This document shows, one piece after another, positions 33,638 to 54,819 of a stretch of DNA of 64,000 nucleotides. The notes under the pieces are model-generated. The model did no database searches, was not told where the DNA came from, and saw nothing but the letters and a program-made list of their open reading frames with translations. Both the position numbers and the translations under genes were made by a program. The stretch is from Lysobacterales bacterium PRO7 (lineage in GTDB: Bacteria; Pseudomonadota; Gammaproteobacteria; Xanthomonadales; Rhodanobacteraceae): positions 1-64,000 of the forward strand of contig QWHH01000005.1 of the NCBI GenBank assembly GCA_021404785.1, written 5' to 3'. Each line of letters starts with the position of its first letter. Positions within the stretch are counted from its first letter, which is position 1.

Positions 33638-36073
33638 ATGAATGCGAATGCATCGACATCGAACACGGGGCAGGATATTCCGGCGCGCGGCGATCGTGCC
33701 CTGCGCCAACGCACGCAAGCATTCGTGCGCGACTGGCGTGCCAGCATCGGCCGGCAATGGCAGATCGAGCAGGCGAGCGCGCTGTACGAGGAACTCGAGA
33801 AACTGGCGGAACTGGCCGACTCACAGGGCGATGCGGATGTCGCCGATCCGGTTCTGGAACTGACCGCTTACCTGTGCACGTTCGTGGATCGCAACAGCAG
33901 GCCGAACCCTGCACAACTGCAGGGCCTGGAACGCATTATCGAGCGCTTGGCCGCCGCCAGCGGCGAAAAACCCGCGCGTCGTGCGCCGCACAAGCCTGCC
34001 ACGGCGTCCGAATCCGCGCACCGGCAGGTGTTTTATCTGCGCGAAAACGCGCGCGAGATTCCCGGATTGGCCGCACGCCTCGGCCAACAGGGCGCCGTGG
34101 TGCGTCCGTTCGACGAGCGCGATGCGTTGCTGCATGCGCTGGACGAGGCCAGTCCGGATGTCGTGCTGATCGGCGAGGCGTTCGCCGCCGAGATCAATAC
34201 CGTGGTCGAGGCCACGCAGCGGCTGCGGCCGGCGCACAAGGAACCGCCGCTGTTCCTCATGCTGGCGCAAGAGACGGACTTGACCCGCACCCTGTTCGCG
34301 CAACGCGCGGGTGCCGACGCCGTCGTGCTCGAACGCGATCCGATCGCGCTGGCCGCGCAGATCGACGGTCTGTTCGCGCAACGCCGCGCGCTCGGCTATC
34401 GCGTGCTGATCGTCGAGGACGACCGTGGGCAGGCCAAGTTTTGCGAATCGATCCTGCGCCATCGCGGCATGCTCACGCGCGTGTGCGAGGATCCCGCGGG
34501 CGTTCCGGCCGCGTTGTCGGAGTTCAAGCCGGATCTGGTGCTGCTCGACCTGTACCTGCCCGGCAGCAACGGCATCGAAGTGGCGCAGCGCATCCGCGAA
34601 TCGGGCAATGCATTCCTGCCGATCGTGTTCCTCTCCGGCGAACTCGACCCGGATTTCCGTTTTGACGCCATTCGCATGGGTGCGGACGATTTCATCACCA
34701 AGCCGGTCAAGCCCAAGCACCTGGTCACTGCGGTGGAAAGCCGCATCCATCGCGCGCGCCAGCTTGTCAACACGCACGGGGAGGGACGTGGCGAACGGCG
34801 CGGCATGCTGTCTGGCCGCGATGTGATGGCTGGCGAAGTACTGCGTGCGGCACAGGATGAATCCGACCGTTGCCCGGCGCTGGCGCTGATCGCCGTCGAC
34901 GATGCGGAAGATGTCATGCGCCGCAGCGGCTTCGTCGCCGCGAGTGCCCTGGGCCAGCAGTTGGCGAGCGCGCTGGCGGGGGAAATTCACGGCCAGCGTA
35001 CTTTGTGTGCGTGGGGTGAACTGAAGTTTCTGGTGCTTGTGCATGCGGACGATCAACTGGCCTTGCGCGAGCAGCTCGAGACGTTGCGACGCAAGCTCGA
35101 CGAGCGTTCGTGGCTTTCCGAGCGCACGCCCGTTCACCTGCACCTGAGTCTGGGCTGCGTGCGTTTGCATCCTCAGCTCGCGGGCATCGATGAAGCACTC
35201 GATCGTGTGCGCGCGATGCTCGCCAACGCCTGGGCCGCAGGCGGGGCACGCTGCGAATTCGATGTGCGCGAGACCAGTAGCCAGGACGGTGAAGACCCGC
35301 AGGTACGTCTCGTGCGCGCATTGTTGCGCGCACCGAGCGCGCGCGGCACCGCCCAGTTCGAATTTCAGCCGTTCGTGCCGCTGGCCGGGCAAATCGCCGG
35401 GCAATACGAAGTGCGCATGGCATTGAAGCCGCCGAAATCGCGGCAGGGCCTGCTGCTGCAGCGCAATGATTGGCTGCCGATTGCGCGCAAACTGGACATG
35501 GTCGCGCATGCGGACCGGCACTTCTTGCGTGGGGTGATCGAGCGCGTGCGCGAAAAGCGCATCAACGGCGTGGATTTGCGCCTGTACCTGCCGGTCGCTG
35601 CATCGAGCCTTTTCGATCCTGCTTTCGCGCCATGGCTTGCGGCCGAGTTCGGTGCCCATGCAGTACCCAGCCATACCCTGGCACTTGAATTCGAAGCTGC
35701 CGAAGTGCGCGCCGAACTACCGCGCTTGCATGCCATGCTGGAACCCGTGCAGCGGGTCGGCGTGCGCCTGGCCTTGAACGTGGGTGCCGACGCTGGAGCG
35801 GATCTCGGAAAATTGCTCGCTCTTGATGCGTTTGGCGTGGTCAAATTCGCGCGCGCCGGTGAATCCGACAGCGTGCCCGATGCCGCCTGGGAACCATGGT
35901 CGAAAGCCATTGCCGAGGCGCGTTCGCTGGGCAAGATCGTCGTGGCTACCCGCGTCGCCGGCATGGCGGATATCGGCGTGCTTCTGCGCATGGGCGTGCA
36001 CTATGCGCAGGGCGAAGCTCTCAGCGGCTGGCTGGCCGATTGGGATTTCGATTTCGCCGAAGCTGTTCTGTAG
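33638..36073 (+). CDS. receiver protein with degenerate GGDEF and EAL domains
   Basis: An 811-residue cytosolic protein. Residues 20-110 are helical. Residues about 128-245 look like a receiver fold lacking the acidic pocket. Residues about 254-375 form a true receiver (YRVLIVEDD; phosphorylatable Asp304 in LLDLYLP; Lys in ITKPVKPK). A GGDEF-like domain follows, with GELKF at 460-464 instead of GGDEF. The C-terminal EAL-like domain (from about 570) has YEVRM in place of EALxR and lacks the DDFGTGYS and KID motifs. It is probably a non-enzymatic c-di-GMP sensor or scaffold of the FimX kind, controlled by phosphorylation. No partner kinase is nearby. Confidence 0.85.
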   Translation: MNANASTSNTGQDIPARGDRALRQRTQAFVRDWRASIGRQWQIEQASALYEELEKLAELADSQGDADVADPVLELTAYLCTFVDRNSRPNPAQLQGLERIIERLAAASGEKPARRAPHKPATASESAHRQVFYLRENAREIPGLAARLGQQGAVVRPFDERDALLHALDEASPDVVLIGEAFAAEINTVVEATQRLRPAHKEPPLFLMLAQETDLTRTLFAQRAGADAVVLERDPIALAAQIDGLFAQRRALGYRVLIVEDDRGQAKFCESILRHRGMLTRVCEDPAGVPAALSEFKPDLVLLDLYLPGSNGIEVAQRIRESGNAFLPIVFLSGELDPDFRFDAIRMGADDFITKPVKPKHLVTAVESRIHRARQLVNTHGEGRGERRGMLSGRDVMAGEVLRAAQDESDRCPALALIAVDDAEDVMRRSGFVAASALGQQLASALAGEIHGQRTLCAWGELKFLVLVHADDQLALREQLETLRRKLDERSWLSERTPVHLHLSLGCVRLHPQLAGIDEALDRVRAMLANAWAAGGARCEFDVRETSSQDGEDPQVRLVRALLRAPSARGTAQFEFQPFVPLAGQIAGQYEVRMALKPPKSRQGLLLQRNDWLPIARKLDMVAHADRHFLRGVIERVREKRINGVDLRLYLPVAASSLFDPAFAPWLAAEFGAHAVPSHTLALEFEAAEVRAELPRLHAMLEPVQRVGVRLALNVGADAGADLGKLLALDAFGVVKFARAGESDSVPDAAWEPWSKAIAEARSLGKIVVATRVAGMADIGVLLRMGVHYAQGEALSGWLADWDFDFAEAVL

Positions 36074-36079
36074 CGCCGC

Positions 36080-39000
36080 TCAGTGCGGCGCCACAGTTGT
36101 GGAAGCGGCTTTGCCGTCGTTGGCAGTTCGTGTGGCCGGCAACACGCGCTGATTTTCCGGTGACTCGTCCACAAACCAGGGCTTGCCGTCCTTGTCCAGA
36201 TACAGGCGCTGCATTTCGTCCAGATGGAACGGGCGCGAGCCGATGCGGCCGAAGACAGCAATCTGGTTGCCGGATTCGTCCACCCCTCGATCGCGCTCGA
36301 GTCCGCGCGACAACGACAGTGCCGGATGCCTGGTCGGATACCAGGCGATCAATTGCGGTTTCGGTTCCGGACTGAAGCCATAGAAATTCGGCTGCGACTC
36401 GGGGCTGGTGAGCTGGATCACCTTGAGTCCGTTCTTGCCATCGGCGACATAGGCGAACAACGACGCATTCGTGGTGCCGACGACGACGTCACGCGCATCC
36501 GAGATTTTCCCGCCCGCATTGAACATCTGGTAGACGAAGGGATGCTCGGGACGCGTCACGTCGATGATGGCGATGCCATCCGCACCGTCGGCGACGTAGG
36601 CGTAGGTGCGCGCCACGTGTAACTTATGTGCATAGCGCAGTGGCACGAAACCCGATACGACTTCGATGGGTTTTTCGCGATGCGTCACGTCGATGACGTG
36701 CAGGCCGTCATTTGCGCTGACGAACAGGTAGCGGAACTGCACCTGCGCTGCCTGTGCACCAGCGATGGGAATCGTCGCGAGGTATTTCGGCTTGATCGGA
36801 TCGGTCATGTCGAGCACGACCACGCCTTTGTCGGTGGACACATAGAACGTGTCGCCGGCGATGGCGAGGTGGCGCGCGCCGTCAAGCACGCCGTTCTCGT
36901 TCCACGTCAACTGGCGCTTGAGGAAGTTGTTGCGCGGCTCGCCGTCGGCGAGCGTTTCGATGTCGGTGGCGATCAGGCCTTCCACTGCGTCGGTGATGAA
37001 CGCGTATTTGTAGATCGGCGCCATCGGCTGTTCTTCGTTGTCCTTGCGCATCAGGTCGCCGACATTGCGGTTGGGCGCTACCGGCTGCGTGGTGGCGAGC
37101 ACGACGCACGTCGCGTCCTTGCTGGCGATGTGCGTGTCCTGGCCGAGCGGCGAGAACGGCGCGGTGACGAGCTTCTCGGAAAAGCCCTTGTTGGCGACGC
37201 TGGCCACGTCGTATACGCGCATGCCCTTGGTGCCTTCCGCCACGTACAGGTATTCGCCGCGCAATTGCAGGCACTGCGCATCGCCGGCATTGTGCTCGGC
37301 GGCGTGCTGCAGCTTTTGTCCGCGATCTTCGTGTGCCTTGTACCAGTCCGGGTAGGCGTATTTCTGCAAATAGCTGCCGATCACGGCCTGCGGCTCGTCC
37401 CATTCGGTGACCTGCACCGCGCCGACGCCGCCGTTTTCGCCGACCCAGGCGTGGTAGCCGATGAAGTCGACGAACTTGGTGCCGAGCAGTAGCAGTTGCG
37501 ACAGGATCGCGTTGTTGTCGTTCGCTTTCGACAGATGGCAGTCGTCGCACTGTTTGGTTTCGGTCTTGCGTTCGGTGTGCGGATAGTGCGGCGCGAACGC
37601 CTGCGAGGAATAGCCCGAGGCCGCGATCGGCGGCTGCTGCACGTAGATCTTCTCGCGGTTGATGTTGGTCGAGGACAGCACCAGCGCCGAGGAGGAACGC
37701 ACCGGTGCGATCTTGTGGTCCTTGACGTCGCCGTGCACGCCGAGCTGAAACATCTGGTCGCGCGCGACCTGCGGGTTGTAGGTGGCAAAGTTGCGCGTGA
37801 AACCGCCTTCGTACTTGTGCCGCTCGGTCTTCCAGTTCGCCTGGATGGGCAGATGGCAACCGCCGCAACTCGTTGTCCACGAGGTGTGGCAGGCGTAGCA
37901 CAGCATCTTGTCCTCGTTGTGCGCGCGCTGGGCCTTGGGCACGTCCGCGCCGAATTTCATCGCGTCCGGGTTGTCAGACACGGTATGCGCCTGCGTCGCC
38001 TTGGCGTCGTACATCGGCGACTTCGGATCGGCGCTGTCCTTGACGAGCGTCATCGTCCATTCCAGTCCCGGCGTCACCGCCGAGCGCTGGATCAGCTTGC
38101 CTTCGACCCACTCGAAGCGCTTCTTGCCGTCCGGGTTGCGAATCAAGAGCAAGTCGCGGCCATACGGCCCGGCCGCGGGGCCGGAGGTCTTGAGCGTCGG
38201 ATACGCATCGACGGTGCCGTGACAATCCTGGCACTGGATTTCCACCGCACCCATGACTTCGGCCTTGACATAGCCGTTGCCGTGGTTGTCCTGGCTGAAA
38301 TGGCAGTCCACGCACTGCATGCCCACGTCGACGTGGATCGATTGCAGGTGCACGGCCTTCTTGAATTTTTCCGGATCGTCGTTGGCGACGATGGCGCGGC
38401 TCTTGTCGAGCAGATCGCCCTTGCGGTCGCGTGCGTACACGGCGCGGAAGTTCCAGCCGTGGCCGTGGTAGTCGGCGAACTGGGTGTCCTTGAGTTGCGG
38501 ATTGAGCAGGGAGACATCCTTCGAAAAATTCGGATCGCCCCACTTGCCGCGGATTGCCGCTTCCTCGGGATTGCGGTCGAGGATCTTGCGTTGCTCCGCG
38601 TCGCTCGGATCTTTCTGCTGCTTCGGCCACATCGATGCCGCGTCGGACTCATAGTCCCACATCGTGTAACCGAGCATGGTGTTGATGAACATGTTCGGCT
38701 GGTGCATGTGGCAGATCATGCACTGGCTGGTCGGGATCTGGCGCGTGAACTCGTGCTTGAGCGGATGCCCGGATTCGGCGTGCGAGATCGTCGGATCGGC
38801 TTCCTGCGACAGGCCGGTGTTGCCGTATTTGGCGTAGATCGCCGAATGGAAGGTGTCGCGGTCGTTCGCATAGACGACGTGGCAGGCCGAGCAGCCGGAC
38901 GAGCGGTAGTCGCCCGGATTGTCGTTGGTGCCGAGCATCCAGATGAAGGGATCGTTCAGGCGTGTCTTGACGATGTTGAGCACGGGAATCGCCACGCGCG

Positions 39001-39892
39001 AACCGGTCCCGGGGCCACGGTTGGACTGGCGGATGTCCGGGCGGCCGGGCTCCTCGAGGCGCTGCAACAGACCGGCCTCGCCGGGCAGGCCGATCTCGGG
39101 AAAAACCGTGCCGATGTTGCGGCCACCGCGCTCGAACACGCGGAAGATGTCGCCGGGCGGGGTGATCTCCCAGGCCGGCATCGGATAGATCTTCGGCAGG
39201 ATGTCATGCGCGGAAGGTTTGCCGTCCGGCACGGGCGGACTGGCCGTTGCGGCCGGCTTGCCGTCTTGCGTGTACGCCTCGCCGAGCACCGAATGCTTGT
39301 AGGGCAGGATGCCGTTGTTGTACGCCGCCGCGCCCCAGAACATCGCCGCATTTGCCATCAGGCTTTTTTCGTTGGCCTGGATTTCCGGCAGGTGGCAGGC
39401 ACCGCAGGCCATGGTCGCCGCGCGCAGGTCGCCGGGATTGACGAAGCGCACGAACTCGGCCGATTCCTTCATCCACCACGTGTAACTGCGCTGCGGATTC
39501 GCGCTGGTCTTCCAGTGCTCGGGATAGCGCGGCAGCACGTGAGCCTTGTCCATCGCGGCCTGGTAGGCGGCCGACCAGTCGCGCTTGTCGTGCTGCGCGT
39601 CGGCATCGTAGCCTTCGCCCGCCGGCGTGTTCACGCTGGCATCGCCACCGTGGCAATCCGTGCAGCCGAGCACGACGCCGCCCGTCGGATGCATGGTCTT
39701 GCGATCCGATTTCGTATGGCAGGACACGCAGCCGCCGGATTTCGCGTCGGCCTGTTCCAGAGTTTGGAACGCGGGCGCGGGCGGTGCGGTGGTGTAGCTG
39801 CGCATGACCGGCTGTTCTTCGTTGGCGCTGGCGAGCGTGGTCGGCAGCGACAGCGCAAATACGACGGCAACGACCCATTTGGCTTTGGTCAT
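36080..39892 (-). CDS. decaheme c-type cytochrome with C-terminal LVIVD propeller
   Basis: A 1270-residue exported protein. A Sec signal peptide (WVVAVVFALSLPTTLASA) is followed by ten CxxCH heme sites starting at Cys55, 77, 163, 334, 391, 527, 554, 665, 676 and 782. From about residue 875 to 1175 there are LVIVD-type beta-propeller blades (YLYVAEGTKGMRVYDV, TFYVSTDKGVVVLDM, YLFVSANDGLHVIDV, YAYVADGADGIAIIDV). No lipobox is present, so attachment to the outer membrane would need a partner; the beta-barrel encoded just upstream is a candidate. It is the last gene of the six-gene electron-transfer cluster and converges with the degenerate GGDEF/EAL gene, leaving 6 nt. Confidence 0.88.
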   Translation of the reverse strand: MTKAKWVVAVVFALSLPTTLASANEEQPVMRSYTTAPPAPAFQTLEQADAKSGGCVSCHTKSDRKTMHPTGGVVLGCTDCHGGDASVNTPAGEGYDADAQHDKRDWSAAYQAAMDKAHVLPRYPEHWKTSANPQRSYTWWMKESAEFVRFVNPGDLRAATMACGACHLPEIQANEKSLMANAAMFWGAAAYNNGILPYKHSVLGEAYTQDGKPAATASPPVPDGKPSAHDILPKIYPMPAWEITPPGDIFRVFERGGRNIGTVFPEIGLPGEAGLLQRLEEPGRPDIRQSNRGPGTGSRVAIPVLNIVKTRLNDPFIWMLGTNDNPGDYRSSGCSACHVVYANDRDTFHSAIYAKYGNTGLSQEADPTISHAESGHPLKHEFTRQIPTSQCMICHMHQPNMFINTMLGYTMWDYESDAASMWPKQQKDPSDAEQRKILDRNPEEAAIRGKWGDPNFSKDVSLLNPQLKDTQFADYHGHGWNFRAVYARDRKGDLLDKSRAIVANDDPEKFKKAVHLQSIHVDVGMQCVDCHFSQDNHGNGYVKAEVMGAVEIQCQDCHGTVDAYPTLKTSGPAAGPYGRDLLLIRNPDGKKRFEWVEGKLIQRSAVTPGLEWTMTLVKDSADPKSPMYDAKATQAHTVSDNPDAMKFGADVPKAQRAHNEDKMLCYACHTSWTTSCGGCHLPIQANWKTERHKYEGGFTRNFATYNPQVARDQMFQLGVHGDVKDHKIAPVRSSSALVLSSTNINREKIYVQQPPIAASGYSSQAFAPHYPHTERKTETKQCDDCHLSKANDNNAILSQLLLLGTKFVDFIGYHAWVGENGGVGAVQVTEWDEPQAVIGSYLQKYAYPDWYKAHEDRGQKLQHAAEHNAGDAQCLQLRGEYLYVAEGTKGMRVYDVASVANKGFSEKLVTAPFSPLGQDTHIASKDATCVVLATTQPVAPNRNVGDLMRKDNEEQPMAPIYKYAFITDAVEGLIATDIETLADGEPRNNFLKRQLTWNENGVLDGARHLAIAGDTFYVSTDKGVVVLDMTDPIKPKYLATIPIAGAQAAQVQFRYLFVSANDGLHVIDVTHREKPIEVVSGFVPLRYAHKLHVARTYAYVADGADGIAIIDVTRPEHPFVYQMFNAGGKISDARDVVVGTTNASLFAYVADGKNGLKVIQLTSPESQPNFYGFSPEPKPQLIAWYPTRHPALSLSRGLERDRGVDESGNQIAVFGRIGSRPFHLDEMQRLYLDKDGKPWFVDESPENQRVLPATRTANDGKAASTTVAPH

Positions 39893-39902
39893 GGCAAGGC
39901 CC

Positions 39903-41732
39903 TCAATAGGTCAGGATCACGTTTGCAAGCACGGAGTAGTACAGCGAATGGTCGGAGCTGAACAGGCTCTTGAAACCGGAGCCGGGTCTGAGTGCGGCGC
40001 CGGACAGGCGCACGATCACGTTCTGGGTGAAGTAGGGTCGCCATGTCCACGCCACCGACACATCCGTGCCGATGCTGCGCCCGATGTTCGCCTGTTGGCG
40101 CAGCGCTTCGAGTGTCGCCGTGTTGTCGAACCAGAGTTCGTTGAGATTGCCGGTTACGCGCGATTGCGGCGTGATGTCGAAATCCGCGCCGATGCCGAGC
40201 AGGCGCAGGCCGGGGTTGTCGAAATTCGATTGGCCGAGCGCGCTGGACGAGCGCAAGTCCGCCAACATGCCGTTGGGCTGGCTCAGCGCCACACCGCCGC
40301 CGCCGATCAACGGCACGGCCTGGCTGATCCAGTAACTGGTATCAGCGCCGGCGAAGATCGGGTTCTCGTTGATCGCATCGAATCCGCTCGAACGGCGGTC
40401 GTGGGCATTCTTGTCGCCGCTCGCGTAGGCCGCGGACAGGCGCGCGCGGATCCAGTCGAAATCCATCGACGCCTCGGCGGCGAGGAAGCCGGCGCGGATG
40501 CTGGTGGATGGTTCCACGAACACGCCGTGATCCTGATGTCCGAACGCGCCGTAAGCGGACACGGTGAGATTGACGCGGCCGATGTGGCCGTCGCCGTTGT
40601 AACCCAGGTAGGTGACGTCGTATTTGCGCGGCAACTGGAGGCCGATCGCGGCCGGGCGCTGGATGAAGCCGTTGGAATCGTAGATCGTGCCGTCGGAATT
40701 GTGGTTGTAGACGATGGTCGCCTGCGAGGTGTAGCCCAGCCAAGGCCAGTCCTGGCGGTACAGGTTGGCGACGAGGATGTCGTCATGGCGCGGCGTCTTC
40801 GTCACGTCGTTGAGGCCGGAATTGAGGTCCTTCTCCAGGCGCCGGAAGTAGGCGAAGTTGTACTGCCAGCGGTTGTTGTCGCGGTTGCCGAACAGGCGGA
40901 TGCCGGGCTGCGAGTCCTGGAACAGGAAACCGCGGAAATCCGTCGAGAACGGCTGGATGCCGATGCGCAGCGAATCGAAATCGTAGCGCGAGGAAACGTC
41001 GCGCAGGTGCTTGTCGACCCACAGTTCCTGCACGCCGATGAAGCCGTCGTCGCGGTCGGTGCCCAGGCGCGGGTCGATGTTCACCGCGCGCGTCTCGCGC
41101 GTGTTGATGCGGTTGTAGTTGAACGCGAGCGTGGCCTTGTATTCGATATTGGGTGGCTTGAACGTGGTGTCGCCTTCGTAGTAGTCCACGCTGGCGATGA
41201 AATTCTGCACCAGCAGCAGCTGGTTGATGCCGCCGAACACGCCTTGTTCGCCCGGGTTGCCGGTGTTCTGCGGCGCGACCGGCGTCGGCACGCTGCGCGG
41301 CTCGATGAAAGTGTCGGAGATACCGGTGAGGACGAGGAAATGATCCTTGCCGTCGATCGGCTTGTCGCCCTTGTACATGTTCTGGTTGTATGGGTCGTAC
41401 CAGGGGAACTTGAAACCGAGCGATTCCATGATGCGCCAGCGGTCGGGCACCGGGATGAAGGCGCCGGCCTGGTCTACCGGCGCGGGCGGAATGCCGTTCG
41501 GGTTGACGACCTTGAATTCCGGCGGCGCCTCGTAGGGATGTCCGGGGCGCCGGCGCGGGATTTCCGACTGGCTCGGATCGTAGGTCGGCGCCGGCAGCAC
41601 GCCGAACAGTTCCAGCAGGTGCGGAACGGCGCTCGCATCCTGCGCGCGTATTTGCGGAGGTGTGGAAAGCGCGGCCAACCCGCAGATCAGGGCGGCGGCG
41701 ATGGCGGGGCGATGGCGAAGATGCGCGTTCAT
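39903..41732 (-). CDS. outer-membrane beta-barrel of the cytochrome cluster
   Basis: A 609-residue exported protein. Signal peptide AIAAALICGLAALSTPPQIRA leads into a ~100-residue Pro-rich N-terminal part and then a long series of alternating hydrophobic/polar strands (for example RWQYNFAYFRRLEKDL, ATIVYNHNSDGTIYD, RVNLTVSAYGAFG). It ends in an aromatic residue (VLANVILTY), as outer-membrane barrels do. I do not recognise it as MtrB or a named family. Between two multiheme genes, a porin-cytochrome conduit role is the natural inference. The ATG is one base beyond the stop of the preceding gene; the decaheme gene follows 10 nt later. Confidence 0.75.
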   Translation of the reverse strand: MNAHLRHRPAIAAALICGLAALSTPPQIRAQDASAVPHLLELFGVLPAPTYDPSQSEIPRRRPGHPYEAPPEFKVVNPNGIPPAPVDQAGAFIPVPDRWRIMESLGFKFPWYDPYNQNMYKGDKPIDGKDHFLVLTGISDTFIEPRSVPTPVAPQNTGNPGEQGVFGGINQLLLVQNFIASVDYYEGDTTFKPPNIEYKATLAFNYNRINTRETRAVNIDPRLGTDRDDGFIGVQELWVDKHLRDVSSRYDFDSLRIGIQPFSTDFRGFLFQDSQPGIRLFGNRDNNRWQYNFAYFRRLEKDLNSGLNDVTKTPRHDDILVANLYRQDWPWLGYTSQATIVYNHNSDGTIYDSNGFIQRPAAIGLQLPRKYDVTYLGYNGDGHIGRVNLTVSAYGAFGHQDHGVFVEPSTSIRAGFLAAEASMDFDWIRARLSAAYASGDKNAHDRRSSGFDAINENPIFAGADTSYWISQAVPLIGGGGVALSQPNGMLADLRSSSALGQSNFDNPGLRLLGIGADFDITPQSRVTGNLNELWFDNTATLEALRQQANIGRSIGTDVSVAWTWRPYFTQNVIVRLSGAALRPGSGFKSLFSSDHSLYYSVLANVILTY

Positions 41733-41733
41733 G

Positions 41734-43728
41734 TCATTTCCCATCGCATACGTTGTCGGCGTTGCTGTCGAGGAATGGCGACTGCGGGCATTGCACGTAA
41801 CGCAGGTGCACGCCCTGCGGCGCGAGCTGATCCGCACGCATTGCCGGCGGCGCGTTGCCGATCGCGCCGCCGAGCTGGACGCCGGCGTTGTACAGGCCGA
41901 GGAAACTGACCATGTCGTCCTGGTCGACGCCGTCGCCGGAAACCCCGAGGCCGCCGACCAGGGTACTGCCGCGATAGATCGGCACGCTGCCCGGGAAAAC
42001 CTGAATGCCATTCGGCAGGTGCGGGCTGGCCGTACAGAACGGCGTCGCAGCCGGCACATTGTCGGCGCTGATCGCAAAACCCTGCGCGCTCAGGTAACCG
42101 ACCAGGTTGAGTGCGACCGCGTTGTAGACGAGGTCGAGTTGCAGACCTTCCTGGAATGGACTCCACTGCGCGAGCGGGTGGCTGAACGGACCATTCGGGT
42201 TGCCGTCGATGCCATCCGGGAAGAATGGCCGTGACAGGTTGCCGCCGGCGCGGTCAGTGAAGGCGATGTTGCCGGTCAGCGCGCTGGGCATGCCGAGAAA
42301 CGCGCGCACGGCGGAAACGTAATCGCCCAGGTTGCCCTGTGCGACGGTGGTGAACGTCGCCTTTTTGTTGGCGAAGTCGAGGCTGTCGCCGAAGTAATTC
42401 GCCGGTGCCAGCGATTGCAGTACGTCCGCCGCGTAGCTGCCGGAATTGAACGCGGCCGTGCGTGCCTTCTGCAGCGATACATCGATGCCGAACACCGGTG
42501 CGTCGCGCGTGCGCGCGACGGCGAGCGCGACACCATTGGTATCGACTATGGAAATCGACACGCGCGCCCGGCTGCCTAACGGATTGCGGATCTGCGCACG
42601 CGCGCGATTGGCGATCATCAGCGCCTGCTCTTCGATGGTCTGCACCTCGTGCGCGGTCAGCGCATTCGCGCCGTCGGTGCCATCCTTCGGCGGATAGCGA
42701 TTGCCGCCGCTGCCGTCGTCGAGTACAAAGGCGTCCAATCCAGCGTACAGTGTGGTGTCCGGACGTACACCCGAAGCGGTTTGCCCGAACGCGGTGCCAG
42801 CGAGGATGGCGCTGCCGTCGAAATAACCCGGCACCTTCATCAATGCGCCGGTCAACGCGGAGTAGGGTGGCGCGCTTTGCGGGTGCGAAGCCAGGTCTGA
42901 ATAGCCAACGTCGCTGAAGCGCAGGCTGATGCCGCCGGCGGTGATCGTGTCGGCGCGGCGGTCGGCGGGTGCGCCGAAGCCGTAAGTGCCGGCCATCGCG
43001 ATCAACTCATCGACGTTTCGATCCTTGTCCATGACATTCGGATCGAGGCCATACAAGCCATCGGCAGCGACGCCGATGCCACCAACCGGAGTTCCACTTT
43101 TATACAATGGAAATCCGCCAGGATCGGCGGAAAGCCCGAGCGGCGAATTGTGCGGACCGACGCCGGTTCCCGACGTGAAATGGGTTGCCAGGTCCGAGCA
43201 GGGCAGTTGCGAGAACTGCACACCGAAAAGCGGGCCGGCCGGAGTGCCGAGCACGCCGGGATTGAAATGCTCCTGCACGATCTGGCTGGCGGTACGCGTT
43301 GAGAATGCGTTGCCTTCGCTGGACAGGTAGGCGCCGGTAACGGCTTTGGCGATGGCGGCGAGCTCACCGGGAACTTTCAGGCCTTCCAGTCCGCCGGTGA
43401 CGTTGCGGCCGGAGGTGATGGTCACGGTGTCCGGCGCGCCATTCATTTTGTATACCGCGAGCACGTTGCCGACGCGATCGACCACGGCGATGACCGCTGG
43501 CTTGCCTTGCGCTTGTGCTTCGGCGGCGGCCTGTGCGATCACGGTCTGCACGTCGGGGGTGCCGAGGAAGGTTTGCGCATTCGCGCACGAACCGTTGCAC
43601 CCGGAATCCGGGGTGGATTGCGGCGGGGGCGGCGCAGTGCCTTCGGTACTCGCCGAATTGCTGCCGCCGCCGCAGCCGGTGAATGCCGCCATCGCAAGCA
43701 CCAGCCACAATACCCTGTTCGTGCGCAT
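41734..43728 (-). CDS. lipoprotein with two GlcG/HbpS-like domains
   Basis: A 664-residue lipoprotein: LWLVLAMAAFTGC is a lipobox signal. Two GlcG/HbpS-like modules are visible: one near the start (IAQAAAEAQAQGKPAVIAVV, then DRVGNVLAVYKMNGA) and one in the second half (MIANRARAQIRNPLGSRARV, then SISIVDTNGVALAVARTRDA). HbpS binds heme and iron in Streptomyces; GlcG is of unknown function. The module ends with YRGSTLVGGLGVSGDGVDQD, also typical. In this cluster it may bind heme or assist cytochrome maturation, but that is inference. A strong ribosome site (GGGAGAAGAG) precedes the ATG. Cysteines CNGSC near the N-terminus lack the histidine needed for heme c. Confidence 0.75.
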   Translation of the reverse strand: MRTNRVLWLVLAMAAFTGCGGGSNSASTEGTAPPPPQSTPDSGCNGSCANAQTFLGTPDVQTVIAQAAAEAQAQGKPAVIAVVDRVGNVLAVYKMNGAPDTVTITSGRNVTGGLEGLKVPGELAAIAKAVTGAYLSSEGNAFSTRTASQIVQEHFNPGVLGTPAGPLFGVQFSQLPCSDLATHFTSGTGVGPHNSPLGLSADPGGFPLYKSGTPVGGIGVAADGLYGLDPNVMDKDRNVDELIAMAGTYGFGAPADRRADTITAGGISLRFSDVGYSDLASHPQSAPPYSALTGALMKVPGYFDGSAILAGTAFGQTASGVRPDTTLYAGLDAFVLDDGSGGNRYPPKDGTDGANALTAHEVQTIEEQALMIANRARAQIRNPLGSRARVSISIVDTNGVALAVARTRDAPVFGIDVSLQKARTAAFNSGSYAADVLQSLAPANYFGDSLDFANKKATFTTVAQGNLGDYVSAVRAFLGMPSALTGNIAFTDRAGGNLSRPFFPDGIDGNPNGPFSHPLAQWSPFQEGLQLDLVYNAVALNLVGYLSAQGFAISADNVPAATPFCTASPHLPNGIQVFPGSVPIYRGSTLVGGLGVSGDGVDQDDMVSFLGLYNAGVQLGGAIGNAPPAMRADQLAPQGVHLRYVQCPQSPFLDSNADNVCDGK

Positions 43729-43822
43729 CGCTCTTCTCCCCAAGCGCGGTGCCTCGCGCCGTTGCCTTCTCAGCACCGGCGCCGCCAGTTCCCCTGTCCC
43801 GCGATGATAACCCAAGGCAAGG

Positions 43823-45502
43823 TCATAACGTACCCATCTTCAGCGTCGGCGACTGGTGGTAATCGTGGCAGGCGATGCAGGTGGTGGCGACCTTGTCCTT
43901 CGCCTTCGCCCCGCCATGGCAGGTGCGGCAGTTGGCGATGCCCGGGATAAGCACATCGCTGGATTGCGTGGATTTGGGTGCGCCATCGTGGCAATCCTCG
44001 CATTTGACCGTGCTGTGCTTGGCATGAGTGAACCGGGCGTCCGCATACCACACGCCGGACACGCGCACCGGCGCCACGTGCCAGGTGTCGTCGGCGGTTC
44101 GTGGCGGGGTAACCTTGTGGCAGGTGCTGCAGGCTTTGCCGGTGAACAGGCTGTCGGTCGCTTCGCTCGCGCGCTGGCGCGCCCAGGCGAGCGCTTCCTG
44201 CTGCTGCTGCTGTGACAACGGTGGTGACCCGGGCCGGCGGCGCTGCTGCACGATGTCCGGCGAGCGCGCGTCTGCATAGCCGCCTTCGAGTGCCACCTTC
44301 GCGTAATACTCGTTGAGCGTGTAGGCGACCGCCGCGACCTTGCCATGCGGCACTTCGCGATCCGGCGCGAGCGTGTCGAAGCCGAGCTTGTGGCAGTCGT
44401 GGCACATGGCGTCGAAATTCACCGGGCGCATCTTCGCGCCGCCGGCTTCCGGCAGGTGGCAGGTCGCGCAAGTGAGCGTGCGATGGCCGCTCGGCGTGTT
44501 CAGACCATCAGGCTTCAAGTGTTTTTCGTGGTTGAACTTGAGGCCGGAGTCTTCCTTCAGGTTCGCGGCCCAGGTCGTGCGTAGCGGCGCGAATTTCCCG
44601 TTCGCATCCCATTCGGGCAGGCTGACCTTGAACTCCGGATGATTCGTGCCGAAGTCGCTGACATCCGCGAACGTGCTGGCATCTTTCGTACGCGCCTTCA
44701 GATTGATGTGGCAATCCGAACACAGACGCTGGTCGGTGCGGATCAAGCCGCGGATTCCTTCATGATCCTGGTGGCAGCTGCGGCACTGCGCGTTGCCGAG
44801 TTGCGGCAGGTTGAACTTCGCCGGATCAGCATGCGCGGCGGTATTCGCGTGGCAGGCCAGGCAGGCCTTGTCGCGCACGGTCAGGAATGCGGTCTGGTGG
44901 CACTTCGTGCAATCGTTGGCGAAAAAATGATGCGCCGAATCGAGCGTGCCGGGATTCCAGCTTTGCGTGCTTGGCAGCAGCGGCAAGCGGCGCAGCAGCT
45001 CGCCGAAGCCGGGAACGAAATGCCCGATCATCGGCAGGATCAGGGCGAACACAAGTATCGCCACAAACAAGATCCACGATGGCTGGCGTTTGCTCAGGCC
45101 GGTCTGCGCCAGACGCGTCGGCTTGGCGCGCAGCGCGCTTTCGGCTTTCTGTTCGCTCTTGTCGAGCGTGGATACCTCGATCGCGGCGTCGTAATCCTGC
45201 GGTGCGGCGAGCAGCGTCAGGCGTGTATTGCCGATCGCCACCACGGCGCCGGCATCGGCGGTGGTGGTGTAGGTGATCGCGTCGTTGACGCGGATGCCGG
45301 CGAGGATCAGCGATTCGATCTTGTACTGGCCGCTGGAAAGCTGGGTCACGCGCGCGTGGTTGAGCGCGACGCGCAGGTCCGGCAGGAAGATGGCCTGGTC
45401 CGCCGCGCGCCCGATCGTGAGCACGTCGCCGTAGTGGACGTCCTCCTCGTAGGAAACGGCGCCCTTGCCCTTCTTCAATACTCGGCGGATGAGCCAGCGC
45501 AT
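43823..45502 (-). CDS. FHA domain fused to a membrane-anchored decaheme cytochrome
   Basis: A 559-residue protein. Residues 1-105 are an FHA domain (VLTIGRAADQAIFLPD, then VALNHARV), which would sit in the cytoplasm. One membrane helix (about 142-164) follows. The periplasmic part has ten CxxCH heme sites starting at Cys198, 214, 240, 261, 345, 367, 458, 501, 525 and 542. FHA domains recognise phosphothreonine, so the cytochrome could be recruited or regulated by a phosphorylated partner; the usual Ser before the conserved His is Asn here. I know of no characterised protein with this arrangement. It is the third gene of the cluster. Confidence 0.88.
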   Translation of the reverse strand: MRWLIRRVLKKGKGAVSYEEDVHYGDVLTIGRAADQAIFLPDLRVALNHARVTQLSSGQYKIESLILAGIRVNDAITYTTTADAGAVVAIGNTRLTLLAAPQDYDAAIEVSTLDKSEQKAESALRAKPTRLAQTGLSKRQPSWILFVAILVFALILPMIGHFVPGFGELLRRLPLLPSTQSWNPGTLDSAHHFFANDCTKCHQTAFLTVRDKACLACHANTAAHADPAKFNLPQLGNAQCRSCHQDHEGIRGLIRTDQRLCSDCHINLKARTKDASTFADVSDFGTNHPEFKVSLPEWDANGKFAPLRTTWAANLKEDSGLKFNHEKHLKPDGLNTPSGHRTLTCATCHLPEAGGAKMRPVNFDAMCHDCHKLGFDTLAPDREVPHGKVAAVAYTLNEYYAKVALEGGYADARSPDIVQQRRRPGSPPLSQQQQQEALAWARQRASEATDSLFTGKACSTCHKVTPPRTADDTWHVAPVRVSGVWYADARFTHAKHSTVKCEDCHDGAPKSTQSSDVLIPGIANCRTCHGGAKAKDKVATTCIACHDYHQSPTLKMGTL

Positions 45503-45576
45503 TCACCAAATCTCCAGTTGAAACCATCCTTGGTGCGTTGCCGTTCGGCGTCCTTGCCTCACCAGCGTTCCGTCGC

Positions 45577-45602
45577 GCGCGATGCGATTCAACGCATCGC
45601 GC
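45577..45602 (-). repeat. 10-bp inverted repeat in the cluster's only sizeable gap
   Basis: GCGCGATGCG (45577-45586) and CGCATCGCGC (45593-45602) are perfect inverted repeats with a 6-nt loop. They lie in the 115-nt gap between the cytochrome b-like gene and the FHA-cytochrome gene. No U-tract follows on the minus strand. The element may be an mRNA processing or stability hairpin, or a partial attenuator. Confidence 0.45.
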
Positions 45603-45617
45603 TAGCGCGCCGGCCCG

Positions 45618-46514
45618 CTACCAGTAGAAGAACGAAGACACGATGTGTGCGATCAGCGCCGCGAGCAGCGCGAACGACAACGGTACGTGGATGTACAGCC
45701 AGATTTCCATCATCGCCTGATACTGCATGTCGCGCGCAACCTTGGTTGCGAGGCCCTTCTTGCGCGAGATCAGGTCGATCAGCGAGCGCATTGCCTCGCC
45801 CTGCTTGTCGGTCGCGCGGCCGGCGAGAAAGTCCACCATCGCGAACATGGTCGGCATTTCCGTGGTCTTCATCTCCGAGCGCTTGTCGCGTTCGGCCAGC
45901 GACGCATGCAACGAGTCCAGCGCGATGTCGGAGCCGTCGCGGGCGCGCAACTGCGTCCACACGCCGCCGCCTAGGCGCGTGTTCTGGATCGAACGCAACA
46001 CGACCGCATGGATCTTCGGGTCGATGCCGTCCGCCAGGGCGAGCGCGTTCTGGTCGATTTCGGCGACCTCGTCGAGCATGGCCGTGCGCGTGGCGCTGTC
46101 GCGGTTGCGCGTCATCAGGTTCGGATAGCGCAGGTAGACGTAGACGCCGAAGAAACCCGAGAAGATCACCACGAGCATGAGTACGAAGGCGAGGGTGTGG
46201 ATGTTCCAGCCGAACTGGAATCCGCTGTGCAGCAGGACGACCAGGATCAGCGATGTGCCCAGGTAGATGTGCGCCGACAGCCAGCCGCGCAGCGTGCCGG
46301 GACTGTTGCGGTAATTGCGCTTGCGCACGCCGAACAGCATCAGCCAGACGATGAGCGCGGCGCCGATGGTGCCGAGCGTGTAGCCGAGCCAGGTGCCGCC
46401 ATTCGGCGGGCCGCCCGGATCGTGGGCGATGTACGCGATCAGCGAGGCGAGCGTGAGCGCCAGCGCGATCCACAGATATCGCGATTTGGCGTAGGTGAGG
46501 ATGGAATCGTGCAT
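45618..46514 (-). CDS. membrane protein, probable cytochrome b
   Basis: A 298-residue polytopic protein starting MHDSILTYAKS. About five hydrophobic helices are seen: 12-31, 37-61, 76-101, 106-133 and 271-298. Histidines fall within helices (LSAHIYLGTSLILVVLLHSG and YIHVPLSFALLAALIAHIV), at spacings suited to binding two hemes b, as in ferric-reductase or formate-dehydrogenase gamma-type subunits. Between helices 4 and 5 lies a ~135-residue soluble stretch. The gene is 8 nt after the iron-sulfur oxidoreductase, so it probably carries electrons between that protein, the quinone pool and the periplasmic cytochromes. I do not recognise a named family. Confidence 0.78.
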   Translation of the reverse strand: MHDSILTYAKSRYLWIALALTLASLIAYIAHDPGGPPNGGTWLGYTLGTIGAALIVWLMLFGVRKRNYRNSPGTLRGWLSAHIYLGTSLILVVLLHSGFQFGWNIHTLAFVLMLVVIFSGFFGVYVYLRYPNLMTRNRDSATRTAMLDEVAEIDQNALALADGIDPKIHAVVLRSIQNTRLGGGVWTQLRARDGSDIALDSLHASLAERDKRSEMKTTEMPTMFAMVDFLAGRATDKQGEAMRSLIDLISRKKGLATKVARDMQYQAMMEIWLYIHVPLSFALLAALIAHIVSSFFYW

Positions 46515-46522
46515 CGCGGCGC

Positions 46523-48934
46523 TCAGCTGCGCGATTGCGCGTAGGCCGGGAATTCCTCCGGCGAGATGCGGATCGCCGCACCAGTCGGGCAGGAACGCAC
46601 GCAGGCGGGGCCGCCGTGCACGTCCTTGCACATGTCGCACTTGACCGCCTTCTTGATTTCGCCTTCGGCATGGTCGTGGGCGTCGTGCGGCGCCTCGCCC
46701 GGGCCGGGGCCGCGCCCGAACAGCAGCCACTGGATGAGACCCGGCTTCTTCGGCGGCTTGTACGCCATGTGGATCACGCCATACGGGCAGTTGCGCTCGC
46801 AGTTGCCGCAGCCGATGCAGTTGTCGGCGATGAACACCTCGCCGTTCGGCGCGCGATGGATCGCGTCCGGCGGGCAATCCTTCATGCAATGCGGATGCTC
46901 GCAGTGCCGGCACGAGGTCGGCACATGCACGCTGGCGAAGGTCGGGCCGGCCTCGCGGTTCAGGCGCGAGGTGCCGGCGTGGGTTTCGGCGCAGGCCTTT
47001 TCGCAGTTGTCACAGCGCACGCACAGCGATTCGTCGATGAGCAGGATATCGGTCGCTTCGCCGGCGCCCTGCGCGAGGAGGAACGAAATGATGTCGCCGC
47101 CGGTCGGCAGCGCCTGCATGGCGAGATTGGCGGCGGTGCGCTGGCGGTATTCGGACTGCAGGCGCAGGCGCAGCACCGGAATGCGGTTCACGAGCTTCTT
47201 GAAGGATTCGCCGTCCAGGCGCACGGTTTCGCTGGCGATCGCCGCGCGTGCCGTCGCCGAACGCCGCGACTCGCCCATCAGCGCCATCTCGCCGACGTAG
47301 TTGCCGGCGGGCACATAGCTGAGCACCACGTCCTTGCCGCCGATGTTGCGCGAAATCGTGAGCGAGCCGACGCGGACCAGGTGCAGGCTGTCGCCGACTT
47401 CGCCCTCGTTGAACAGCACGTCGCCGGCCTTGAACTTTTCCAGCCGCGCCGCAGCGACCACGTCGGCAAGCTGCTCGGCGCTGGCTTCCGGCGCGAAGCG
47501 CGATTGCAGCGCGCGCAAGATGAACACCTCGTCGATATGGCGCTTCACCGCCTCGACCGAGGCGATGAGGCGGTTCATCGAACGCCGCGGCGTCTCGATC
47601 AGCACGCAGTTGCTTCCGGCCAGCACGGTCGCGGAGCGACGGCGGCCCGAGATCAGGCTCATTTCACCGAAGAATTCGCCGCGGCGCAGGGATACGCGCT
47701 TGTTCGCGGCCTCGTCCACGACCACCTGCACGTCGCCGTCGACGACGCTGAAAAACGTGTTCGTGTAATCGTTGCGCGCGAAGATCGTCTCGCCCGGCGC
47801 CGGCGTGCGGATGTCGGAATCGAGCATGAACTCGCGCAGTTGCAGCGGCGTGATGCTGGCCAGCAACGGCACGTTCTTCTGGATGCGCGCGAGCGCCTCG
47901 TCGACCGAGCGGAAGCCCGGCATCTTCGCGAACTTGGCCTTGAGCAGCGGCTCGTCGGCCGGCTCGACCTTGTTGCCGAGGATGTATTCGATGACCTCGT
48001 AGCCCTGGTTCATCGCCTGCTTGATCAGCGGATAGCCGCCGAGCGCCCCGACAATGTACAGGCCCTTCACGTTGGATTCGTACTGCGAACTGATGGCCGG
48101 CACCGAAGCCGGATCCTTGTTCGGGAACGTCACCCCGCAGGCTTCGACGAAACCGCGTGGTGCGGTCGCGCCGAGGCGTGCGATCACGCGGTCGATCAGT
48201 ATCTGTGCCTTGCCGCTGGCGGTGTTGAGGATCATGCGGCCTTTCTTGCGGCCGACGCTGAGTGCGTCGACGCGTTCGGGACCGGAGTTGTAGTAGCACT
48301 CGATGACACCGTCGGCGATGGCCTTGAGGATGGCCTGCTCATTGCCTTTCTTGGCGCGCGCGAACTCGTCCTTGCGGTTGACGATGACGACGTTGTTCTG
48401 CTTCGACAGCGCCACCGCGTTCTCGATCGCCGCGTCGCCGGCGCCGATCACGACGATGGTCTCGCCGGAGTATTCGTCCGGATCGTCGAGCTGGTATTGC
48501 ACGAACGGCAAGTCCTCGCCGGGCACGCCGAGCTTGCGGATGTTGCCCTGCAGGCCGATGCCGAGCACGACGAAATCCGCGGCGATGAGCTGGCCGTTCG
48601 TGCACTTCAATTCGAAACCGCCGCCCGGTGCCTGCTTGATTGCGCTGACCTCATGGCCGTGGCGCACGTTGATTTTCAGGCGCGCGGCGGATTCGTCCCA
48701 GGCGCCGAGGATGGATTCGCGCGAGCCGGCCTTGAACGGCACCGGCGAGCGCAGCGGCAGGATGCCGGGCTCGTCCATCACGAACTTGCCTTTCTGGTAG
48801 CGGAAGATCGTGTTCGACAGATGCGGTTCGGCTTCGAGCAGCACATGCGATTCGCCGCGCTCGGCGGCGCGCGCCGCGGCGGAAAGCCCGCCCGGACCGG
48901 AACCGACGATGGCGATCTTGAAGCGCTCGGACAT
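46523..48934 (-). CDS. FAD oxidoreductase with two cyclic-nucleotide-binding domains and four [4Fe-4S] sites
   Basis: An 803-residue cytosolic protein. Residues 1-325 are a thioredoxin-reductase-like flavoprotein: FAD motif GSGPGGLSAA (11-20) and NAD(P) motif VIGAGDAAIENA (about 162-173), without a redox CxxC. Two cyclic-nucleotide-binding domains follow; their phosphate cassettes FGEMSLISGRRRSAT (about 422-435) and VGEMALMGESRRSAT (547-561) keep the Glu and Arg that bind cNMP. The C-terminus holds 16 cysteines in four groups (638-648, 675-687, 706-716 and 766-782), enough for four [4Fe-4S] clusters of the HybA/DmsB kind. It is the first gene of the cluster; GGGAGGGA precedes the ATG. Confidence 0.9.
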   Translation of the reverse strand: MSERFKIAIVGSGPGGLSAAARAAERGESHVLLEAEPHLSNTIFRYQKGKFVMDEPGILPLRSPVPFKAGSRESILGAWDESAARLKINVRHGHEVSAIKQAPGGGFELKCTNGQLIAADFVVLGIGLQGNIRKLGVPGEDLPFVQYQLDDPDEYSGETIVVIGAGDAAIENAVALSKQNNVVIVNRKDEFARAKKGNEQAILKAIADGVIECYYNSGPERVDALSVGRKKGRMILNTASGKAQILIDRVIARLGATAPRGFVEACGVTFPNKDPASVPAISSQYESNVKGLYIVGALGGYPLIKQAMNQGYEVIEYILGNKVEPADEPLLKAKFAKMPGFRSVDEALARIQKNVPLLASITPLQLREFMLDSDIRTPAPGETIFARNDYTNTFFSVVDGDVQVVVDEAANKRVSLRRGEFFGEMSLISGRRRSATVLAGSNCVLIETPRRSMNRLIASVEAVKRHIDEVFILRALQSRFAPEASAEQLADVVAAARLEKFKAGDVLFNEGEVGDSLHLVRVGSLTISRNIGGKDVVLSYVPAGNYVGEMALMGESRRSATARAAIASETVRLDGESFKKLVNRIPVLRLRLQSEYRQRTAANLAMQALPTGGDIISFLLAQGAGEATDILLIDESLCVRCDNCEKACAETHAGTSRLNREAGPTFASVHVPTSCRHCEHPHCMKDCPPDAIHRAPNGEVFIADNCIGCGNCERNCPYGVIHMAYKPPKKPGLIQWLLFGRGPGPGEAPHDAHDHAEGEIKKAVKCDMCKDVHGGPACVRSCPTGAAIRISPEEFPAYAQSRS

Positions 48935-49001
48935 GTGTCCCTCCCCGTGGCAGATGATACCGAATGTGCCGCACTGGCGCGCAATCTGCGATGATTCGGC
49001 G

Positions 49002-54017: not shown

Positions 54018-54788
54018 ATGGGCGCGGAACCCTTCATCGTCGCCATTCCTGCGCGTTATGCGTCCACGCGCTTGCCCGGCAAGCCGCTCCAGATGATCGC
54101 CGGCGAGCCGATGATCATGCACGTCGCGCGGCGGGCGATCGCGGCCGGTGCGGCGCAAGTCGTGGTCGCCACGGACGATGTTCGCATCATAGATGCCTTG
54201 CGTGATGCGGCGGTGCGCGTGGTGATGACTCGCCTCGATCATCTTTCCGGAAGCGACCGGCTGGCCGAGTGTGCCGAACACTTGCGTTGGGCGGACGGTG
54301 CCATCATCGTGAACCTGCAAGGCGACGAGCCGCTGGCGCCACCGAGCGGAATCCGCGCCGTGGCCGAATGCCTTGCATCGAGCAATGCGTCGATGGCGAC
54401 GCTGGTCACGCCGATCGCCAGCGCGCAGGAATTGTTCGATCCGAACTGTGTAAAAGTCGTGGCCGGTCGCGACGGAAATGCGCTGTACTTCTCGCGTGCG
54501 CCTCTGCCGTGGGCACGTGATGCGTTCGCGCGTACCCGCGACGCGTTGCCGGATGGACACGTCTTTCTGCGCCATATCGGCATTTACGCCTATCGCGCGG
54601 GATTCCTGCGCGCGTTCGCCGCGTTGGCGCCGACGCCGGCCGAGCGCGCCGAATCGCTGGAACAACTGCGCGCCCTTGAACATGGCCATCGCATCGCTGT
54701 GCGCCTTGCGCCCGAGCCGTTCCCGGGCGGCGTCGATACGCCCGAGGACCTGGCGCGGGTCGATGCGCAGCTGCGCAAGGGCGCATAA
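54018..54788 (+). CDS. kdsB: CMP-KDO synthetase
   Basis: A 256-residue nucleotidyltransferase that activates the lipopolysaccharide sugar KDO as CMP-KDO. The sequence opens with [19 protein letters not shown], the family hallmark. [14 protein letters not shown] and [13 protein letters not shown] are further conserved blocks. It is needed for the lipid A-KDO core, so it is normally essential in Gram-negatives. The start is 4 nt after ispG. Confidence 0.96.
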
Positions 54789-54819
54789 TGGCGGCGGTCA
54801 TCAGCAATCCCCAACACGC

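Follow-up and report, generated by a model that had tools for sequence, protein, structure and literature searches.

Electron export to the outside of the cell is known mainly from metal-respiring specialists. In systems of the MtrCAB type the electrons enter by way of a CymA-like quinol oxidase, and the MtrB barrel, made of 26 strands, encloses the periplasmic cytochrome. We analysed a cluster of six minus-strand genes, all open and named G1 to G6 in the order of their transcription, located at 36080-48934 in a 64,000-nucleotide stretch of the genome of Lysobacterales bacterium PRO7 (2.8 Mb, 99.5% complete); the window, below, means this whole stretch. As in MtrCAB, a barrel gene adjoins genes for multiheme cytochromes and a passage of electrons across the outer membrane is proposed; unlike MtrCAB, the entry would be made of NAD(P)H, FAD, iron-sulfur (FeS) clusters and a cytochrome b, together with signalling domains.

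We propose, with a probability of about 0.5, that this operon specifies a trans-envelope exporter of electrons, fed by NAD(P)H and controlled by cyclic nucleotides and possibly by phosphorylation; functionally it would resemble a trans-membrane NADPH:acceptor reductase to which a cytochrome module of the outer membrane is attached. The original prediction, made from the window itself, described the six genes, their spacing (8, 115, 94, 1 and 10 nt from G1 to G6), 20 heme c sites (CxxCH, ten in G3 and ten in G6) and four cluster sites, and all of this is confirmed. The identities then given to the genes agree with ours: a flavin/FeS protein (G1), a predicted cytochrome b (G2), a membrane decaheme cytochrome (G3), a probable GlcG-type lipoprotein (G4), a predicted barrel (G5) and a second decaheme cytochrome (G6). 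None of the six proteins matches an NCBIfam model above its own cut-off (for G1, among 25 of 107 matches listed).

Conservation and distribution of the cluster

The six genes form one conserved but uncommon unit. A scan of GTDB contigs gave at least 595 pattern stretches, 594 of which were confirmed as G6 relatives; 80 loci, with titles mostly of Alpha-, Beta- or Gammaproteobacteria, were kept for the counts, and G6 has exactly ten CxxCH in all 80. Gene order was counted only in kept loci with sufficient upstream DNA: of the 66 loci with at least 2 kb, 64 have G5 immediately before G6, and the order 2-3-4-5-6 is maintained on one strand in 46 of the 53 with at least 9 kb, in Alpha-, Beta- and Gammaproteobacteria. 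G1 is upstream in 38 of these 53 loci, downstream in 8 and not found in 7, a count which concerns the strand of G6 only, L110 carrying its inner block (G1-G2-G3) on the opposite strand. On two Sphingobium plasmids the set is likewise split, with an outer block T4-G4-G5-G6 (T4 being a cytochrome gene described below) and a nearby inner block on the opposite strand. The genes thus stay together, as expected of the operon first predicted, and synteny and co-occurrence rule out chance or artefact as the origin of the grouping.

G6 is carried by 12 of the 274 genomes sampled in the class, 11 of 398 in the phylum and 33 of 200 in the order, host included. The samples of the host genus and family (one congener and 19 family members listed) contain no match outside the host, yet four contigs (L033, L034, L037 and L045) show 89-93% best-segment identity, so that the spread appears patchy. 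In a tree of 84 G6 proteins (quick method, midpoint root) the proteins are grouped mostly by class, that of the host falling within the Lysobacterales clade; this suggests an old system transmitted largely by descent. Within proteobacterial groups of the tree there are also metagenome-assembled genomes (MAGs) with the titles Vicinamibacteria, Marinimicrobia and Mycobacteriaceae, which may represent transfers or mis-binned contigs. The 80 loci belong for the most part to MAGs without known physiology; cultured strains account for several of the carriers.

A protein some 152 aa long, with no Pfam match for the one representative scanned, accompanies ten alphaproteobacterial-type loci (L060, L061, L063, L071, L074, L087, L089, L096, L103 and L110), several times seemingly between G3 and G4.

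The inner block, a predicted route from NAD(P)H to the periplasm

G1 (46523-48934, minus strand like all six genes, 803 aa) appears from Pfam and alignment to be a soluble NAD(P)H/FAD oxidoreductase with tandem cyclic-nucleotide-binding domains and four [4Fe-4S] clusters. It has no hydrophobic segment, and Pfam finds in it Pyr_redox_3/2, cNMP_binding (two stretches) and Fer4. The FAD/NAD(P) domain with its two dinucleotide folds spans residues 5-311 (Pfam range; 48002-48922), where G11, G13, P14 and G16, then G164, G166, D167 and I170-A173, are invariant among the 44 sequences aligned. Two arginines following the second fold, R187 (42/44) and R193 (37/44), recall those of NADPH-specific thioredoxin reductases, which we take as a lead only. 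The ferredoxin domain (about residues 631-787; 46574-47044) is similar to formate hydrogenlyase subunit 2/HycB and has 16 cysteines invariant in 44/44 sequences, corresponding to four [4Fe-4S]. Between them, the tandem cyclic-nucleotide (cNMP) domains (roughly residues 384-584, with only an approximate left edge; 47183-47785) are similar to PKA regulatory subunits. In cyclic-nucleotide-regulated proteins the phosphate-binding cassette bears a Glu and an Arg; cassette A of G1 has the Gly, Glu and Arg in 44, 43 and 44 of the 44 sequences, cassette B in 43, 37 and 44. Because both cassettes mostly retain Glu and Arg, a cyclic-nucleotide input through G1, already put forward in the original prediction, is credible.

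A role in anti-phage defence was considered and rejected: five of the six PADLOC matches of G1 fall on its cNMP domains (Pycsar-type) and the sixth is a marginal N-terminal match to LmuA (16.7 bits), while G2-G6 and T4 have no PADLOC match.

G2 (45618-46514, 298 aa) has five hydrophobic segments and is predicted to be a five-helix membrane cytochrome b. H82, H96, H106, H276 and H290 are invariant in the 28 sequences aligned (the window and 27 of 50 relatives), and the pairs 82/96 and 276/290, each with its histidines 14 residues apart, lie in or border hydrophobic segments. In diheme cytochromes b two helices bear each two His some 13-14 residues apart; the predicted arrangement in G2 is this four-histidine pattern of a two-heme (bis-His) cytochrome b. 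The Pfam match to Ni_hydr_CYTB is below the cut-off, and the PDB gives only weak sequence matches (best E 0.071), e.g. ATP synthase subunit b, which we took as chance.

G3 (43823-45502, 559 aa) has a single hydrophobic segment, placed between a cytosolic FHA-like domain (about residues 29-97; 45212-45418) and a periplasmic part with multiheme cytochrome domains (Pfam) whose ten CxxCH are retained in 11/11 sequences. The FHA match in Pfam (19.2 bits) stays below its cut-off of 20.7. In FHA domains the phosphothreonine site consists of Gly-Arg, Ser, His and Asn; among 53 G3 sequences the Gly is retained in 48, the Arg in 40, the His in 34 and the Asn in 29. Altogether, a chain from a cytosolic flavin/FeS protein through membrane heme b to a periplasmic decaheme is strongly indicated by these sequences.

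A seventh member, T4

The six genes were first presented as a complete path from the cytosol to the outer membrane. The part from cytosol to periplasm is supported as described above, but completeness does not stand. In many relatives a gene directly after G6, which we call T4, encodes a 430-450-residue cytochrome of the cytochrome c554 kind, a probable pentaheme with four CxxCH and one CX4CH (36/36). It lies within the locus in 32 of the 62 loci with at least 3 kb downstream, and is present in all 39 carrier genomes behind the GTDB-scan loci (from 40 chosen out of the 80 loci, mainly for long flanks, L042 being left out). In the 274 genomes of the class, T4 occurs in 14 and G1 in 15: all 12 genomes with G6 carry both, against two (T4) and three (G1) of the 262 without G6. 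As T4 accompanies the set in all carrier genomes examined and is encoded elsewhere in the host (contig C3, 72758-74068), the six genes alone are not the complete path.

In genome G091 (L133/L138, contig C41) G1-G2-G3 and two T4 genes are combined with another outer module, which consists of a 593-aa protein bearing five CxxCH and of a barrel-like protein (542 aa) without Pfam match, and G4-G5-G6 were not found in this stretch; this single case fits a modular design. Genome G155 has, adjoining the main cluster, a second and distant inner-type set (L136, 10150-16522) with a c554-like cytochrome, a cNMP-ferredoxin protein without FAD-domain match, a small G2-like membrane protein and an 869-aa decaheme. 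Genome G214 shows pieces of G1-G5 on an early-ending contig, with no G6 match.

The outer module

G4 (41734-43728, 664 aa) is a probable lipoprotein, with a lipobox FTGC recognized by eye (a lipobox-like motif is present in 38 of 55 relatives) and an HbpS/GlcG domain in three stretches (PF03928, E 1.4e-24). G5 (39903-41732, 609 aa) is very probably an outer-membrane barrel, as originally predicted: its AlphaFold2 model (predicted local distance difference test, pLDDT, 73.7) is a closed barrel of 18 strands at residues 131-608, and a terminal aromatic residue is found in 63/63 sequences. Pfam gives no match for G5 at E<=0.01 and a 41-sequence profile no PDB sequence match at E<=5; neither G5 nor G6, as single sequences or profiles, has a PDB sequence relative at the E-values used (the alignments comprised the window with 40 of 48 usable G5 relatives, and with 43 of 74 usable G6 relatives). 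The predicted fold of G5 is like that of the alginate exporter AlgE, at 12-14% identity, and in the model comparison is also shared with the OprD/Occ solute porins. G6 (36080-39892, 1270 aa) is predicted to be a secreted decaheme cytochrome with a C-terminal beta-propeller: Pfam finds LVIVD repeats and multiheme domains, and the best structural match of the propeller is that of a surface-layer protein. The matches listed by VIA for the G6 model cover the propeller (model residues 700-1166).

The original prediction compared the cluster with the MtrCAB type, and the general layout, an operon that combines a barrel with multiheme cytochromes, is indeed that of this family. The family models, the comparison of profiles and the model of the barrel nevertheless speak against membership in MtrCAB/PioAB/MtoAB, which we consider extremely improbable. 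G5 has no NCBIfam match at E<=0.01, MtrB (TIGR03509) included; the comparison by hhalign of 41 G5 with eight MtrB (8 of 12 MtrB loci aligned) gives a probability of 0.1%; the model has 18 strands against the 26 of MtrB; and the host genome contains no MtrB match at E<=0.001. Among the cytochromes, neither G3 nor G6 matches the MtrA/DmsE-type TIGR03508, for which T4 scores 21.1 bits (cut-off 192.2), and for the OmcA/MtrC-type TIGR03507 G3 reaches 18.4 bits (cut-off 209.3) and G6 has no match.

The same data on G5 raise another explanation, that of a multiheme reductase which works in the periplasm and has a porin of its own: an anion or other solute would enter through an AlgE/ExtI-like G5 and be reduced by G6 and T4 in the periplasm, with G1-G3 feeding them, and the electrons would not pass the outer membrane. 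The 18-strand fold shared with AlgE and OprD/Occ, the lack of profile similarity to MtrB, and a G6 which is not lipoprotein-like speak for it, as does a distant match of G6 to ExtM of Geobacter (64 bits, cut-off 800), since ExtI, the porin of the ext cluster, matters for the reduction of selenite and tellurite and not of Fe(III) citrate, as given in the part of PMC5877670 on which we rely. On the other hand the propeller of G6 is best matched by a surface-layer protein, G6 matches no catalytic family (Pfam, NCBIfam) and would be a very large protein for a soluble enzyme of the periplasm, and the lipoprotein G4 suggests an assembly at the outer membrane; none of these points is decisive. We judge such a reductase rather unlikely, though a serious candidate.

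Membership in the Geobacter ext group was also rejected: besides ExtM, G6 scores only 19.7 bits for ExtO and 19 for ExtN (cut-off 200 for each).

Proposed path and direction of the flow

In the exporter that we favour, G1 would bind NAD(P)H and FAD in the cytosol and pass the electrons through its four [4Fe-4S] to G2, whose two bis-histidine hemes b would take them through the inner membrane; the ten periplasmic hemes c of G3 would then take them, these three steps being supported by the sequences. Further on, T4 might shuttle electrons in the periplasm from G3 to the outer-membrane module G4-G5-G6, where the decaheme and propeller of G6, held by G5 and G4, would reduce an acceptor located at the outer membrane or beyond it. 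The cyclic-nucleotide domains of G1 might switch the flow post-translationally and, in many carriers, so might the kinase, PP2C and FHA genes linked to T4.

An outward flow should prevail by default, since NAD(P)H donates electrons at low potential and their exit is favoured by the membrane potential. Anatomy does not set the direction, and the same chain could be used inward, a donor outside the cell, such as reduced metal, humic matter or a surface, giving its electrons through G6/G5 for the reduction of NAD(P)+. One carrier, L084, is a Haliea MAG whose title suggests a biocathode, and several named carriers are aerobes that could gain from an outside donor. But NAD(P)+ reduction would have to proceed uphill, with the redox potential and the membrane potential both opposed to it, and Pfam reveals no energy-coupling subunit among the six genes, so we regard the inward use as improbable.

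Several observations weigh against the exporter as we propose it, some of them on its control and others on its outer end. At the Ser position of the FHA site, G3 has an Ala in 27 of the 53 sequences; as the usual Ser is mostly Ala, phosphothreonine binding by G3 is uncertain. In eight of the 39 carriers, which all belong to the alphaproteobacterial part of the tree, neither PP2C nor kinase is among the matches listed, so that phosphorylation control would not be universal. The whole G6 (about 140 kDa) inside G5 is excluded, MtrB being wider than a barrel of 18 strands, and G5 may be a solute pore. G6 has a plain signal peptide (by eye), with a lipobox-like motif in 1 of 76 sequences, and its heme part is poorly modelled (pLDDT below 60 in 45 of the first 75 ten-residue blocks). 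Its propeller and the HbpS-like domain of G4 have no assigned role in the proposed path. Finally, the gene order is broken in 7 of the 53 loci, G1 was not found on the same strand in 7 of 53, and a Sphingopyxis plasmid stretch has only T4-G4-G5-G6, without inner block.

Signalling genes and other neighbours of the cluster

We surveyed the neighbours of 94 loci (the 80 and 14 others) by single-linkage clustering, one representative of each cluster being checked in Pfam. The recurrent ones are PP2C (10 loci), an FHA protein (7), a CHASE2 cyclase (6) and glutamate dehydrogenase (6), to which are added CcmA-like (labelled by eye) and CcmI/CycH-like proteins, in nine loci each. G1-G6, T4, PP2C and FHA make up a single run in L080, L092 and L102. 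In the host (L113, 8759-12418, from C3:64000-83500) the gene after T4 encodes a Ser/Thr kinase of the Hanks type that includes a TPR part, and a PP2C gene is on the other strand; a large protein whose end resembles an autotransporter barrel and a caspase-like protein, both recognized by eye, are found beside them.

In 17 of the 39 genomes a PP2C gene is no more than 3 kb away from T4, for 0.1 expected from PP2C density. The distance is 0.2-2.6 kb in 12 genomes of the Lysobacterales clade and 39-133 nt in five others (four Halieaceae and L102), so these are two arrangements and not 17 independent events. Among the matches listed, a kinase is within 0.2 kb of T4 in G657, G665, G668, G669 and G673, and at 1.1 kb in G687. 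This linkage alone is weak, because the 14 genomes of the Lysobacterales clade hold 10-49 kinase matches each among those listed. Thus the phosphothreonine input of the original prediction is doubtful where it concerned the FHA domain of G3 itself, and gains some ground from the linked PP2C, kinase and FHA genes in part of the carriers.

Signalling domains within two electron-transfer proteins, and the linkage of genes for PP2C, kinase, FHA and cyclase in some of the carriers, would also suit a redox sensor or envelope-signalling device, in which few electrons flow and the heme state informs the cyclic-nucleotide and phosphorylation machinery. Yet a sensor would need far less than 20-25 hemes c, four clusters and two hemes b, and no kinase, cyclase or DNA-binding domain appears among the Pfam matches listed for G1-G6 (25 of 27 for G1); we give this idea little credit.

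CHASE2 cyclases are found near the cluster or inner module on the Sphingobium plasmids L017 and L019 and in Limnobacter L085. Two-partner-secretion genes with very large exoprotein-like genes also occur nearby, in L017 (annotated TpsB-type), L138 and L085 (by eye), and a link of the cluster to secreted adhesins is possible. Glutamate dehydrogenase adjoins the cluster in L018 (annotated NADP-specific), L021, L025, L055, L073 and L102, and might tie it to the NADPH balance.

In the window, a gene divergent from G1 (48996-50933) encodes a protein with an acetyl-CoA hydrolase/transferase C-terminal domain; as both starts are about 61 nt apart, the two genes may share a control region. A response regulator-GGDEF-EAL protein (33638-36073) is convergent with G6, and a PAS-GGDEF-EAL protein (4661-7876) lies further left. 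Two NHL-repeat proteins are also encoded, one fused to a thioredoxin-like domain (54478-56247) and the other at 13759-16383.

Comparison with known systems

The carrier genera Duganella, Limnobacter, Haliea, Parahaliea and Sphingobium are known as ordinary aerobic heterotrophs. If the exporter is real, many non-specialist bacteria own a conserved NAD(P)H-fed electron line from the cytosol, with second-messenger domains in its redox proteins; one could then test directly whether cells control the export of electrons at the post-translational level, and environmental genomes could be searched with a further marker of redox activity at the envelope. A broader picture can be drawn tentatively, at odds that we would not call favourable: a widespread and old electron line of proteobacteria, many of whose carriers are not known as metal respirers. 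It would bring electrons from NADPH to the cell surface through an AlgE-like barrel module, would be switched directly and post-translationally by cyclic nucleotides bound to G1 and, for most carriers among the Gammaproteobacteria, by a linked circuit of Ser/Thr kinase, PP2C and FHA, and would be made of inner and outer modules that can be re-paired.

No system with this gene set was known to the original prediction, and we found no published description of it in the open PMC literature; the supplements of PMC11475568, which may list the cluster, were outside the scope of this search. The part of that article used here (Garber 2024) reports 440 clusters without FeGenie homologs. We regard as new the four-histidine pattern predicted in G2, the predicted AlgE-like 18-strand barrel of G5 instead of MtrB, and T4 as a seventh member.

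The working idea is that of the NADPH oxidases and ferric reductases (NOX, FRE), in which NADPH, FAD and two stacked hemes b hand electrons to the outer face. Unlike these, the cluster has a TrxR/YpdA-like flavoprotein, four FeS clusters in between and a heme c chain after; no ferric-reductase domain is among the Pfam matches listed for G1-G6. The FAD/NAD(P) part of G1 scores 108.8 bits (cut-off 339.9) with YpdA/thioredoxin-reductase-like flavoproteins, and unlike YpdA it is fused to cNMP and ferredoxin domains. With AlgE, G5 shares the predicted 18-strand fold but no sequence family, and none of the six genes resembles polysaccharide synthesis, in contrast with the setting of AlgE.

The Geobacter extHIJKLMNOPQS cluster, in the part of PMC5877670 considered, similarly combines a porin, several multiheme cytochromes, and an inner-membrane cytochrome b with an FeS protein. 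Its porin ExtI (45.2 kDa) is smaller than G5, and the same part of PMC5877670 names no FAD, cNMP or FHA part; conversely, no rhodanese or Rieske match is among the Pfam matches listed for G1-G6. Multiheme electron transfer across the envelope is a known kind of process, which would be carried out here by other protein families, from another entry point and with signalling domains built in.

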